This document shows, one piece after another, positions 45,108-50,116 of a stretch of DNA of 64,000 bases (position 1 is its first letter; the number at the start of each line of letters is the position of its first letter). A model generated the notes under the pieces. That model was given only the letters and a program-made list of their open reading frames with translations. It was not told the DNA's origin and did no database searches. The DNA lies in contig NZ_CP045851.1 in NCBI RefSeq assembly GCF_009650215.1, forward strand, positions 2,197,001-2,261,000, given 5' to 3'. A program made the position numbers and the translations under genes. This DNA comes from Actinomarinicola tropica (GTDB lineage Bacteria > Actinomycetota > Acidimicrobiia > Acidimicrobiales > SKKL01).

Positions 45108-45113
45108 AGGCTA
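45108..45113 (-). promoter_or_regulatory. -10 box TAGCCT for leaderless alaC mRNA, overlapping the ROK stop codon
   Basis: The minus strand reads TAGCCT, ending 6 nt before the alaC ATG. The box begins with the TAG stop codon of the upstream ROK gene, so one triplet serves both. Confidence 0.5.
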
Positions 45114-46121
45114 CCGCTGCGCCGCGGACCCCGGATCGAAGGTTCGGGGCCGGACCTCGCCGTCGGGCCGGAGCGCGTCGGCGGCGAGGAGCGCGGCGCC
45201 GACCGCCGCCGCGTGCTCGCCGAACACGGCGGGCAGGACGGGGACCGGGGGACGGTGGCTGGATCCGATGATCAGGTCGGCGACCGCGGAGCGGAGGGGG
45301 TCGAGCAGCACCGGTCCGGCCTCCACGACCCCGCCGCCGATCACGACGACCGACGGGTCGAGGGCGTTGACGAACCCGGCGAGGCCGAGCGCCACCCAAC
45401 GGGCGAAGGCGGCCATCACCGCCAGGCCCTCGGGGTCGCCGGCGGCGGCCGCCGCCACCGCGTGCTCGCCGGTGACGTCGTCGGCGCGCTCGGCACCGGC
45501 TGCGGCGAGGATCCCTGCGCCGCGGCCGTCGAGCACCGCCTCCCGTGCCTGCTCTCCGAGCGCGGATCCGGATGCCAGCCGCTCCCAGCACCCCTGTCGA
45601 CCGCACCCGCACAGGGGCCCGTCGGGGTCGATCACCACGTGACCGAGCTCGCCGCCGAACCCGTGCGCGCCGCGCCGCAGCGCGCCGTCGAGGACGATGC
45701 CGCCACCGATGCCCGTGCCGAGGGCGACGTAGAGCGCGTCGTCCACGCCTCGCGCCGCGCCGAGGCGGTGCTCGGCCACGGTCGCCGCGGTGGCGTCGTT
45801 GTCGACCGCCACGGGGAGGCCGAGCCGATCGCCGAGCAGGCCGACGAGGTCGAGGTCGACGACCCCCGGCAGGTTCGGCCCGTAGCGGAGCACACCCGAC
45901 GTGTCGACGAGGCCGGCGGCGCCGACGCCGACGGCGCGGATCGGACGCCCGCTCCCTTCGGCGAGGGCATCGACGACGGTGCCGAGGGCATCGGCGACCT
46001 CGGCCCGGCCCTGGGGCGTCGGCACGCGCCGCTCGGCGAGGACCTCGCCCGACCCGAGGTCGACCGCGAGACCCAGGATCTTCGTGCCCCCGATGTCGAG
46101 GCCGACCGCTGCGTCGCCCAC
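45111..46121 (-). CDS. ROK-family glucokinase-like sugar kinase
   Basis: 336 residues. VGLDIGGTKILGLAVD at the N-terminus, AVDNDATAATVAEHRLGAA with the catalytic Asp, GTGIGGGIVLDG, HVVIDPDGPLCGCGRQGCWERLASG (ROK signature with intact CxCGxxGC zinc cluster at 171-178) and VVVIGGGVVEAG. This set is typical of glucokinases in actinobacteria. GTG at 46121, 1 nt after the stop of the eRF1-like gene, so probably co-translated. Confidence 0.9.
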   Translation of the reverse strand: MGDAAVGLDIGGTKILGLAVDLGSGEVLAERRVPTPQGRAEVADALGTVVDALAEGSGRPIRAVGVGAAGLVDTSGVLRYGPNLPGVVDLDLVGLLGDRLGLPVAVDNDATAATVAEHRLGAARGVDDALYVALGTGIGGGIVLDGALRRGAHGFGGELGHVVIDPDGPLCGCGRQGCWERLASGSALGEQAREAVLDGRGAGILAAAGAERADDVTGEHAVAAAAAGDPEGLAVMAAFARWVALGLAGFVNALDPSVVVIGGGVVEAGPVLLDPLRSAVADLIIGSSHRPPVPVLPAVFGEHAAAVGAALLAADALRPDGEVRPRTFDPGSAAQR

Positions 46122-46122
46122 G

Positions 46123-47232
46123 TCAGAAGCGGAGGAGGGCGCCGATGCGGCCCATCACGTCGAGGTCGGCGTTGCCGACGCACACCTCGACCCGACAGGA
46201 CTGGGCCAGCGCCTCGTGCACCGCCTCCTCGACGACGTCGTCCACGCGCTCCATCGTCGCTCCGCACGAGGGGCACGTGGGACCGACGGCCGCGAGCGCG
46301 CCGCAACCGCAGCGCCACCCGGCCTCGGCGTAGTCGTCCGACACGAGCAGGTGGTCGGCCCGACGCTCGTGCAGGGCACCGAGGGTGCCGGCGAGACCGG
46401 CGACGCCCTTGCGACCGGCGCCGACGGCGTCGCGCAGACGGGCGACGGCCGTGGCCTCGGCGGCGCGCTCGGCCTGGGCCTGCACCTCGAGCACCTGCTC
46501 GTGCACCTCCTCGACGGTGGCCCCGGCGCCGACGCGGATGCGCTCGGTGAGCCGCTCCTTCAGGTAGGGGTGCAGGAGCGCCTCGACCTCGGCGGTGGCC
46601 TCGGGGCTGCCGCCGACGGTGACGAGGCCGACCTTGCGCTCGTTGAAGAGCTGGAAGGCGGCGGAGGCCGCGTGCCGCAGGTGCTGGTGCACCAGCTCGT
46701 CCACGTGGGGCTCCACGCTGCCCCGAGCGGACTGGTCGCGGACGTCGTAGTCGCGCGGCAGCTCGTCGACGACCTCGCTGCGCTCGACGAGCTCGCCCAT
46801 CTCGTAGACGAAGAGCCGGGAACGCTGGCGGTCGACGAGGATCACGCCGATCGGGCGCAGCTCCTGGACGATCGACTCGAGCTGGCCCAGCGCGGGCGCG
46901 TGGCCGATCGTGATGCGGCTGTGCACCCGCACGGGCAGGGGGATCACCCGCCACAGCTCGCGCGGCGAGCACGAGAACATCGCGAGCCCCCGCACTCCCC
47001 CCTTGCGCTCGAACCCGTTGCGGACGTGCGCCTGGAACCGCTGGAGGTCGTCGCCCACCGACGGCTCGTCGGCGACGTGCGCCGACGCCCGACGCACCAG
47101 CCGGTCGAGCTCGCGCTCGACGTCGACCGGTCGCACGTTCTGGCGCCCGTCGACGTCGAGGTAGCAGGTGGTCACCGGAGCACCGTCTGCGTCGAACTCG
47201 GCCAGCTCACGCACGACCTGATCGTTGATCAC
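46123..47232 (-). CDS. Bacterial archaeo-eukaryotic release-factor-1-like (baeRF) protein
   Basis: 369 residues. Resembles archaeal/eukaryotic eRF1 middle and C-terminal domains found sporadically in bacteria. VTTCYLDVDGRQNVRP begins the family core. RPIGVILVDRQRSRLFVYEMGELVE is the domain-2 strand pair. RDQSARGSVEPHVDELVHQHL aligns with the GGQSAQRF loop of aRF1, so Gln167 is kept but the two glycines are Arg-Asp. Near residue 300 a zinc ribbon CGCGALAAVGPTCPSCG follows. A ribosome-rescue or peptidyl-tRNA role is inferred. GTG at 47232 with AGGAGG upstream. Confidence 0.75.
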   Translation of the reverse strand: MINDQVVRELAEFDADGAPVTTCYLDVDGRQNVRPVDVERELDRLVRRASAHVADEPSVGDDLQRFQAHVRNGFERKGGVRGLAMFSCSPRELWRVIPLPVRVHSRITIGHAPALGQLESIVQELRPIGVILVDRQRSRLFVYEMGELVERSEVVDELPRDYDVRDQSARGSVEPHVDELVHQHLRHAASAAFQLFNERKVGLVTVGGSPEATAEVEALLHPYLKERLTERIRVGAGATVEEVHEQVLEVQAQAERAAEATAVARLRDAVGAGRKGVAGLAGTLGALHERRADHLLVSDDYAEAGWRCGCGALAAVGPTCPSCGATMERVDDVVEEAVHEALAQSCRVEVCVGNADLDVMGRIGALLRF

Positions 47233-47305: not shown

Positions 47306-49567
47306 TCAGATCGCGGGCTGGCCGGGCCGGACGACGGCGGCGACGTCGAGGCCCTGCGCCCGAGCCCAGGCGGCGACCGCCGGGGTGTCGCCGACGTACA
47401 GGATCTGCACGGTGCGAGCGACCTTGGCCAGCGCGGCGCAGAGGCTCTCGACGTGGTCCTCGGAGAGGCCCCGGAACGCGTCGTCGAGGACGAGCGGCAC
47501 GGTGCCGGACGGCGCCGCGGTGCGGAGCGTGGCGACCCGGCCGAGCAGGAACCACTCGATGGGCTCGACCCCTGCGTCGTCCAGGTTCCACTCCACCTCC
47601 GGCGGCGGACCCCCGGTGACCTCCTCCTCGAGGGAGGCGGCGGCGTGGGCGGCGTCGTCGTGGCGCGCCTGGACCTCGCGCTCGGCGCTGCGGGCGCTGC
47701 GCAAGCGGCCCTGGAGCTCGTCGGCGAGGGCGACCGCGTCGCGGTGCCGGGCGAGCCGCGCCTCGGCCACCGCGAGCTGTTCGTGTGCGCCGCGCACGGC
47801 CGGGTCCTGGGCGACGCGCGGGTCCTGGGCGGGGTCGGCCGGGGCCGACGCGGCGAGCGCGTCGAGCGCGGCCTCCACCTCGGCCACCCGACGGGCGTGC
47901 TCCTCGGCGACGTCCTCGAGCTCGGCCAGCGCCGCGTCGGCGGTCGCGGCCCGGGCGTGGAGGTCGTCGACGCGTCGTGCGGCAGCCTCCACCGGACGCT
48001 CGACGGGGACGGGCACCTCGTCGTCGGCGGCTCGGCGGGCGTCGAGCTCGGAGCGGGCCAGCGCAGCGTCGGCGAGGAACGTCTCGGCGGCGCCGACGAG
48101 GGTGCGCTCGTCGTCGCCGCGGCGGTCGATGCCGAGGCGGTCGAGCAGCGCCCGGAGCTCGTCGACGGCGGGGTGGTCGGACTCCGCCGGCACGCGCAGG
48201 GCGCGCAACGCCGACTCGACGTCGTCGGGCAGGGTGGCGAGCAGGTCGCGGGCCGCGGCCCACAGCTGGTCGCGCTCGGCGCGCAGCATCAGCACCCGGG
48301 CATCACGCTCGAGGATGCTGGCGGCCTGGTCGAGCTGCCCCTCGAGGTCGGCGACCCGGTCGGTCGCGGCGTCGAGGCGACGCCGGGCGTCCACGTCGAT
48401 CGTGGGTGCGATCCGCCCCATGACGTAGGCGGCGTAGGTCGGGTAGCCGACGCGGTCGAGGATGGCGTCGAGCGCGTCGCACGCCTCCTGGTAGGCCGAT
48501 TCGGTCGACTTGCCGGAGCGGCGCGACGACCGCTTCTCCCCCAGGTCGACGACGATGTCGTGGAGGCGCTCGATCTCGGCGTCGTCCTCCGGCGAGATCA
48601 CCTTCGGACGGGCGGCCTCCTGCGCGGCCTGGACGTCGAACTGCGCCGCCGACAGCTCGTCCTGGAGGGCGACGACGTCGATCCCCTCGTCGCGCAGCGT
48701 CTGCTCCAGCGCGTCGTGGCGCTCGTTGTGCTCCCGGATCCGATCCGCCAGGTCGAGCGCCTCGGGGGAGGTGACCATCGGCGCCGGCGGCGGGCCCATC
48801 CGGACCAGCTCGAGGGCCTGCTCGACCGCAGCGACGTGCTCGGCGGGCGGCACGACGGGAAGGTCGGGCTCGGTCGGGGCCTCGGCCGCCTCGGCGGCGT
48901 CGTCCGCGCTCAGCTGGTCGTGCTCGGCGCGGGCGGCCTCGAGGTCCTCGAGGAGCTCGAGCAGCGCCAGGCGCTCGGCGTCGAGACGGGCCTCGTGCCG
49001 CGCGGCGGCCTCGCGCGCCTCGGCGAGCGCGGACTCCAGACGGACCCGCTCGTCGGTGGCGGCGGTGCCCTGGAGGCGGGCGACGGCTGCCGCCTCGGCC
49101 TCCCGCACGGCGGCCACGGCCGCGTCGTGGGCGTTGATGGCGAAGTCGTCGACGCCGCGGCGGGCCTCGTCGAGCTGGTTGGTGGCGGTGGCCACGGCGC
49201 GACGGGCAGCGGTGAGCTCGTCCTCCAGCTCGGCCAGCGCGGCTCGGGCGGCGGACAGGCGGGCGTCAGCGTCGGTGTCCGAGCCGCCCGCGCCCACCAG
49301 ACGTGCGCCGGGGAGCTGCTCGGCCCGCACGAGCACCTCGGTGTCGGGCGGGAGGTCGAGCGCAGCGAGCGCTCCGGAGGACAGCTCGCTCAGCACCTCG
49401 TCGGACTCGATGAGGCCGCTCGTCCCTGCGGCGTCGCCGCGGGTCAGCCGCACGAGGCGGTCGACGACGCGACGGTGGACGTCGGGGTCGAGGCCACCGA
49501 GCACCGTGACGTAGGGATGGAGGTCGAGCTCCTCCCCGTCCTCGAGGTCGAGTCGAAGGATCCGCAT
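47306..49567 (-). CDS. SMC/RecN-like coiled-coil protein lacking Walker A
   Basis: 753 residues. Short N-terminal globular part (1-95), very long coiled coils (about 98-310, 395-640) around a GYPTYAAYVMGR hinge-like segment near 370, and a C-terminal globular end. The end has a Walker B-like strand VPLVLDDAFRGLSEDHVESL and ATPase-type closing strands (QILYVGDT). Where SMC proteins carry the P-loop, the sequence is VTVLGGLDPDVHRR with no GKS/T, and no LSGG signature is present. It looks like an SMC-type ATPase that has lost nucleotide hydrolysis. ATG with GAGGACC. Upstream of the eRF1-like gene. Confidence 0.7.
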   Translation of the reverse strand: MRILRLDLEDGEELDLHPYVTVLGGLDPDVHRRVVDRLVRLTRGDAAGTSGLIESDEVLSELSSGALAALDLPPDTEVLVRAEQLPGARLVGAGGSDTDADARLSAARAALAELEDELTAARRAVATATNQLDEARRGVDDFAINAHDAAVAAVREAEAAAVARLQGTAATDERVRLESALAEAREAAARHEARLDAERLALLELLEDLEAARAEHDQLSADDAAEAAEAPTEPDLPVVPPAEHVAAVEQALELVRMGPPPAPMVTSPEALDLADRIREHNERHDALEQTLRDEGIDVVALQDELSAAQFDVQAAQEAARPKVISPEDDAEIERLHDIVVDLGEKRSSRRSGKSTESAYQEACDALDAILDRVGYPTYAAYVMGRIAPTIDVDARRRLDAATDRVADLEGQLDQAASILERDARVLMLRAERDQLWAAARDLLATLPDDVESALRALRVPAESDHPAVDELRALLDRLGIDRRGDDERTLVGAAETFLADAALARSELDARRAADDEVPVPVERPVEAAARRVDDLHARAATADAALAELEDVAEEHARRVAEVEAALDALAASAPADPAQDPRVAQDPAVRGAHEQLAVAEARLARHRDAVALADELQGRLRSARSAEREVQARHDDAAHAAASLEEEVTGGPPPEVEWNLDDAGVEPIEWFLLGRVATLRTAAPSGTVPLVLDDAFRGLSEDHVESLCAALAKVARTVQILYVGDTPAVAAWARAQGLDVAAVVRPGQPAI

Positions 49568-49663: not shown

Positions 49664-50116
49664 TCACGACGCGACGGCCTCCACGCGCGCCTTCAGCTCG
49701 GGCAGGGCGGTGCGGAGGATCTTCGCCTCGGCGCGGCGCTTGACGAAGCCGGGCAGCGGCACCACGAGGTCGACCTCGAGGTGGTAGACGACCTCGGTGC
49801 TCGAGGCATCGCCCTCGACCGGGTTGAAGTCGTACACCCCGTCGAGCACCTGCGTGAGGTCACCCTCCACGAGGTACCACGAGAGGCGCTGGGGCGCGGC
49901 GGCGTAGTCGTAGCGGAGCGTGTAGCTGGTGCTGCGACCCATCGCCGCGGTGCGGAAGGCGACCTGCACGGGACGCCCCTCGTCGTCCCGCTCGAGCACC
50001 GTGGCGTCCTTCACGTCCTTGGCCCAGTCCGGGTAGCGCTCGACGTCGGCCGCGACCTCGTAGCACGCCTGTGCGGGGGCGTGGATCACGATGCGCTCGT
50101 TGGCCTGCTCCGACAT
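49664..50116 (-). CDS. SRPBCC (START-like) family protein
   Basis: 150 residues. Helix-grip fold: IVIHAPAQACYEVAADVERYPDWAKDVKDATVLERD is the COQ10/polyketide-cyclase-like start, with HLEVDLVVPLPGFVKRRAEAKILRTALPELKARVEA as the C-terminal helix. Such proteins bind hydrophobic ligands and serve as lipid carriers or cyclases; no catalytic motif is evident. ATG at 50116 with AGGAG. Between a membrane protein and the SMC-like gene on the same strand. Confidence 0.88.
   Translation of the reverse strand: MSEQANERIVIHAPAQACYEVAADVERYPDWAKDVKDATVLERDDEGRPVQVAFRTAAMGRSTSYTLRYDYAAAPQRLSWYLVEGDLTQVLDGVYDFNPVEGDASSTEVVYHLEVDLVVPLPGFVKRRAEAKILRTALPELKARVEAVAS

Follow-up and report, generated by a model that had tools for sequence, protein, structure and literature searches.

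A probable pseudo-ATPase family with SMC/Rad50-like architecture in Acidimicrobiia, represented by a P-loop-less protein of Actinomarinicola tropica

The window analyzed here, a 64,000-nucleotide stretch of the Actinomarinicola tropica genome (contig NZ_CP045851.1, positions 2,197,001 to 2,261,000), carries the following genes of interest:

49664 to 50116, minus strand: SRPBCC/polyketide-cyclase-like gene, upstream of the SMC-like gene, in the conserved block (domain scan, locus comparison)
47306 to 49567, minus strand: gene of a 753-aa SMC/Rad50-like protein, predicted to be ATPase-dead (ORF, codon-position GC, GAGG before ATG, syntenic homologues)
46123 to 47232, minus strand: baeRF family 10 (Balon-like) gene, 73 nt downstream of the SMC-like gene (Pfam E 1.7e-21)
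45111 to 46121, minus strand: ROK-family gene, in the conserved block (domain scan, locus comparison)

The 753-aa ORF starts with ATG just downstream of a GAGG, its codon-position GC (0.86/0.49/0.95) resembles that of the neighbouring real genes, and it is a real gene. Searches of Pfam, NCBIfam and PDB sequences with the window protein returned no credible match, and in the scans made the members of its family remained outside all Pfam, NCBIfam and PHROGs models. A PADLOC match to LmuB (E 1e-4, residues 396-643), as well as the PDB profile matches, was taken as coil similarity, since these matches lay mostly within coiled-coil regions.

The AF2 model of the full-length protein (pLDDT 88.9, pTM 0.42) displayed a head, two long arms and a helical middle, in agreement with the globular ends and the two long coiled coils reported in the first-pass annotation. 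The parts of the protein were assigned as follows:

49292 to 49567, minus strand: N-terminal half of the predicted ABC-type head, residues 1-92 (AF2 strands E2-7, E13-15 and E20-23, helix 28-42, strands 50-61)
49469 to 49501, minus strand: degenerate Walker A, residues 23-33 (LGGLDPDVHRR), with the first Gly kept, His at the Lys position and no S/T
48800 to 49276, minus strand: predicted coiled-coil arm 1, residues ~98-256 (AF2 helices 98-137, 143-166, 169-228, 242-256)
48137 to 48766, minus strand: predicted all-helical middle/tip domain, residues ~268-477 (AF2, pLDDT mostly >90)
48422 to 48448, minus strand: GYPTYAAYV motif, residues 374-382, conserved in coil-bearing homologues and present in a looser form in the membrane branch
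47615 to 48109, minus strand: predicted coiled-coil arm 2, residues ~487-651 (AF2 helices 487-513, 525-574, 589-651)
47309 to 47605, minus strand: C-terminal half of the predicted head, residues ~655-753, homologous to the YhaN/AAA_27 C-lobe (hhalign probability 98.1, E 1.1e-13)
47474 to 47500, minus strand: Walker B-like VPLVLDDAF, residues 690-698 (motif reading, homologue and profile alignments)

The head was also modeled with a natural homologue devoid of the coil (L037, 191 aa, 38 aligned rows), for which AF2 reached pLDDT 87.6 and pTM 0.85. A Foldseek search of this model against the PDB gave the Thermotoga maritima SMC head as the best match (1e69, E 2.9e-5, TM 0.59 by query), while nearly all other matches were ABC ATPases. 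According to these data, a single ABC-type head is predicted to be built from the two terminal halves; the N-terminal head elements of the window protein recur in the modeled head-only homologue, which folds like ABC/SMC heads. ABC topology having been found by both AF2 and Foldseek, the SMC-like reading stands. The best PDB match of the full-length model was Rad50 (7zr1, E 5.6e-8), so that the protein shares the head-arm-tip plan with both SMC and Rad50, its head model being nearest to the former and the full-length model to the latter, but differs from them in its dead motifs and helical tip. The middle domain is all-helical but for two three-residue strands, and no alpha/beta SMC hinge was seen in the model; nor is there a CxxC zinc hook, because the middle of the protein contains a single cysteine (EACDAL). 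The GYPTYAAYV segment, previously described as hinge-like, is real and conserved, but, as it lies within this all-helical domain, the description is valid for its position only and does not make it an SMC hinge.

The nucleotide-binding motifs were analyzed in 35 aligned proteins of the window type (hereafter group A), 32 of which possess the N-lobe. In the window protein the Walker A place (residues 20-33) is occupied by VTVLGGLDPDVHRR, without GK[S/T], and no LSGG-type motif was found anywhere in the sequence, just as the first-pass annotation had stated. The same holds for the relatives: GxxxxGK[S/T] was present at the Walker A site in none of the 32 N-lobes, and the ABC signature (LSGG/LSxGT), carried by the canonical relatives, was absent from the aligned place in all 35 proteins. 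The His-switch position is never occupied by His (0/35), being Asp in the window protein and 25 of the 35. Judging from the sequences, the loss of P-loop, signature and His switch is thus a family trait rather than a local change; no close homologue with an intact P-loop was found, and a local mutation or sequencing error as the cause of the missing motif was ruled out by the homologues. The Walker B-like VPLVLDDAF noticed earlier does conform to the hhhhD[D/E] pattern, and its Asp residues are kept in most homologues, though not in several sub-branches. Pro691, Gln721 and Trp734 are invariant in the group A alignment.

The residues that persist could be regarded as parts of an atypical but active nucleotide switch, in which the Arg replacing the P-loop Lys would, together with the Walker B-like Asp pair, bind a nucleotide or some other phosphate ligand, making the head ligand-gated. 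Indeed, the Lys position is occupied by Arg in 21 of the 32 N-lobes (by His in three, including the window protein, and by Lys in one), the first P-loop Gly is kept in 31, and the Asp is widespread. Nevertheless, we consider such a switch improbable, as the Gly-rich cradle, the S/T, the signature and the His switch are all absent, and the Walker B Asp is itself dispensed with in the sub-branches mentioned. Moreover, both AF2 models begin the helix that follows the P-loop strand early, at residue 28, three residues past the conserved Gly25. The helix of a canonical P-loop starts later, near the Lys.

Comparison of profiles placed the nearest active relatives of the protein among YhaN/SbcC-like ATPases (AAA_27, PF13514). 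The C-lobe aligned with the profile of intact AAA_27/YhaN-like proteins with the high significance given above, whereas the N-lobe match to AAA_27 was weak (probability 26, E 7e-4), although in register, Gly on Gly; the YhaN descent therefore rests mainly on the C-lobe. In a tree of the C-lobe (about 95 columns, the signature region included), all P-loop-less proteins fell on one side and the canonical ones apart with 100/100 support; the segment of one protein in it (L144) was taken from a zinc-finger-like tail and that of another (L032) was shortened, the main split being judged independent of both. The window family has in common with the AAA_27 proteins the split ABC head, the long coiled coil between its halves and the homologous C-lobe; in addition, TM-like stretches occur in three AAA_27 relatives (L102, L106, L112), a middle pair in some AAA_27 members recalling the membrane branch of the window family. 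On the other hand, active AAA_27 relatives carry GPNEAGKS-type and LSxGT motifs, whereas the window family lacks P-loop, signature and His switch, and the window protein gave no match to the AAA_27 Pfam model over its cut-off. A metallophosphoesterase (YhaO/SbcD-like) gene adjoins the active relatives in the three loci checked (L102, L105, L106), while the window gene has no such neighbour, being accompanied by the SRPBCC, baeRF10 and ROK genes. The initial assignment to SMC should accordingly be narrowed: the SMC/Rad50-like shape with dead motifs holds, but, by motifs and C-lobe hhalign, the nearest active relatives are the AAA_27 ATPases and not SMC itself. Another SMC-related family that is distinct from SMC and Rad50 and confined to a lineage is that of the archaeal ClsN/Sph (ASRP) proteins; unlike the window family with its lost P-loop, they have both Walker motifs, A and B, and almost all of them a zinc hook as well (PMC9389158).

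The genome of A. tropica also encodes a canonical SMC (L104), a SbcC-like protein and an intact YhaN-like ATPase with TM-like stretches (L102:6977-11447; G000:C1 about 2.90 Mb), located directly downstream of a metallophosphoesterase gene. By its sequence, the latter ATPase is the active counterpart of the family in this genome.

A single-sequence search detected homologues in 17 of 59 related genomes. Of 298 genomes from the order, 99 gave matches to a 12-row profile, a count that takes in canonical YhaN-like proteins and the membrane branch as well. When 396 genomes sampled across the phylum were searched with the N-lobe profile, no member came to light beyond the class Acidimicrobiia; the outside matches inspected (L154-L156) were rejected as ordinary P-loop proteins resembling RecF or RecN. 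In the scan of named genomes, made with the C-terminal alignment, the nearest records likewise belonged to Acidimicrobiia/Acidimicrobiales. Group A proteins vary in length from 190 to 991 aa. The shortest of them are natural head-only forms of 190-191 aa without coiled coil, encoded in three genomes of one genus (L037:5670-6242, L099:9383-9952, L100:9607-10179). Four proteins from the same class but outside the order (L144, L146, L147, L157) possess a C-terminal Cys-rich tail, putatively of the B-box-like zinc-finger type; a Pfam scan of two Cys-rich-tailed proteins gave no match.

A paralogous branch, group B, comprises proteins of about 440 aa with one or two hydrophobic stretches midway along the chain and is clearly related to group A in profile comparison (E 4e-56). 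Its P-loop-less, presumably membrane-anchored representative in A. tropica (G000:C1:243925-245253; L101:9926-11254, minus strand) divergently adjoins an EF-Tu gene, a second near-identical copy of which is present in the genome. A GNAT gene lies downstream of this paralogue and was found in six other loci.

The neighbourhood was surveyed in 78 loci, including the window, chosen for holding either the SMC-like gene or baeRF10. The conserved block of group A consists of genes for QueG, a glycosyltransferase, a membrane protein, SRPBCC, often an ArsA-like ATPase, the SMC-like protein, ROK and an aminotransferase. In many relatives an ArsA-family ATPase with an HSP20-like end is encoded between SRPBCC and the SMC-like gene (e.g., L099:10217-11389); no such gene occurs between them in the window. 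The pairing with an eRF1-like gene, called unusual in the first-pass annotation, is real in that the neighbour, a baeRF10 gene, lies directly downstream on the same strand; its product is related to MSMEG_1130 ribosome hibernation factors, belongs to the Balon/baeRF factors and forms no part of the SMC-like protein. However, the two genes occurred together in only 22 of the 78 loci, the SMC-like gene being found alone in 20 and baeRF10 alone in 36, and in 32 of these 36 the space upstream of baeRF10 was below 700 nt, which leaves no room for a full-length SMC-like copy. Since the loci were picked for holding one gene or the other, these counts are no test of co-occurrence and show only that neither gene needs the other. 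A dedicated pairing was rejected on this ground; baeRF10 is a positional neighbour and not an obligate partner.

For the same reasons we find it hardly probable that the protein is a translation- or dormancy-linked factor acting with the Balon-like baeRF10, the membrane branch working near EF-Tu, e.g., as a tether for hibernating ribosomes. This idea draws on the adjacency in the window and the 21 further loci with both genes, on the position of the membrane paralogue beside one of the EF-Tu genes, and on the fact that Balon acts with EF-Tu on ribosomes, its genes often being found in stress operons (PMC10901736). Yet baeRF10 is missing from 20 of the 42 loci with the SMC-like gene, and the SMC-like gene from 36 of the 58 with baeRF10, and the adjacency can be explained without function, because chromosomal synteny extends over the entire block.

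The protein diverges fast, sharing 56% amino acid identity with the copy from the same genus, and this, together with the wide range of lengths, could suggest a decaying functionless gene or a coiled-coil protein with a chance resemblance to SMC. Such a reading is highly improbable and already disfavoured: the frames were intact in the homologues examined, one and the same slot holds the SMC-like gene in 42 loci, and the ABC head fold was predicted with high confidence. Pairwise dN/dS among the head-only copies was 0.29-0.44, compared with 0.45 for the window gene and its same-genus copy, 0.34 for group B and 0.18-0.24 for the neighbouring genes. Selection on the family, the head-only form included, is therefore purifying, but looser than on the neighbours, whose dN/dS values it exceeds.

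The ABC/SMC head and the family-wide motif loss in the product of this real gene being well predicted, we infer a structural or regulatory role for it. Most probably, although with appreciable doubt, the protein is a pseudo-ATPase of the SMC/Rad50 superfamily from the YhaN/Rad50 line, serving as an ATP-independent scaffold, tether or regulator. It would have descended from YhaN/SbcC-like ATPases or share a common ancestor with them; its chain ends would come together as a single ABC-type head, with the central part running out and back as an antiparallel coiled coil that ends in a small helical tip. In the models the P-loop appears to be replaced by one more turn of helix, and neither signature nor His switch is left, so that the head is not expected to go through ATP-driven engagement and hydrolysis; with the ATP-binding and -splitting motifs lost throughout the family, an unpowered scaffold or regulator is the probable outcome. 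The head would be the indispensable binding module and the arm an adjustable spacer, because three genomes of one genus keep the head alone and the sister branch appears to anchor it to the membrane. A homodimer or an active head of the YhaN/SMC type may be favoured as the binding partner. Apart from the weak N-lobe match, the few columns of the tree and the looser constraint, two considerations speak against this pseudo-ATPase interpretation: a nucleotide site without any use would hardly be expected to keep the Walker B-like Asp in most members, and a scaffolding or regulatory role is what one would guess by default for any pseudoenzyme.

A more specific function, possible but rather unlikely, is that of a dominant-negative or allosteric regulator: the dead head would pair with a head of the cell's intact YhaN-like ATPase or its SMC and thereby stall the ATP cycle of this partner or set its timing. 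Suitable targets are encoded in the same genome (the YhaN-like ATPase by the metallophosphoesterase gene and the canonical SMC), and head-only forms exist. The nearest published precedent is SMCL-1 of Caenorhabditis elegans, for which such a mode of action has been proposed; this SMC-like protein lacks hinge and coil, has a defective ATPase domain and binds condensin SMC subunits (PMC5373644). The head-only homologues of the window family resemble it in the defective head and in being devoid of hinge and coil. However, SMCL-1 has not lost Walker A and is recognizable in just some Caenorhabditis species (PMC5373644), whereas the window family is bacterial, class-wide and without P-loop; besides, the long arms and own tip of most members are not needed by a head inhibitor, and linkage of the SMC-like gene to a yhaN or smc gene was not seen in the loci.

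Returning to the unpowered scaffold, we tentatively suggest, with rather low confidence, that the family represents a passive device of SMC architecture, which would order DNA, membrane or another SMC-type complex as its target, with no ATP cycle involved, and exist in cytosolic, membrane-anchored, zinc-finger-like and head-only versions. Our search of largely open-access literature found no other P-loop-less SMC-like bacterial family. The family may serve as a test set for proteins beyond the Pfam, NCBIfam and PHROGs models scanned. SMC and Rad50 are defined by their ATP cycle, and a motif-dead family with the same body plan would let the architecture be studied without the motor, the natural bare-head versions offering a direct route to what this architecture does on its own.
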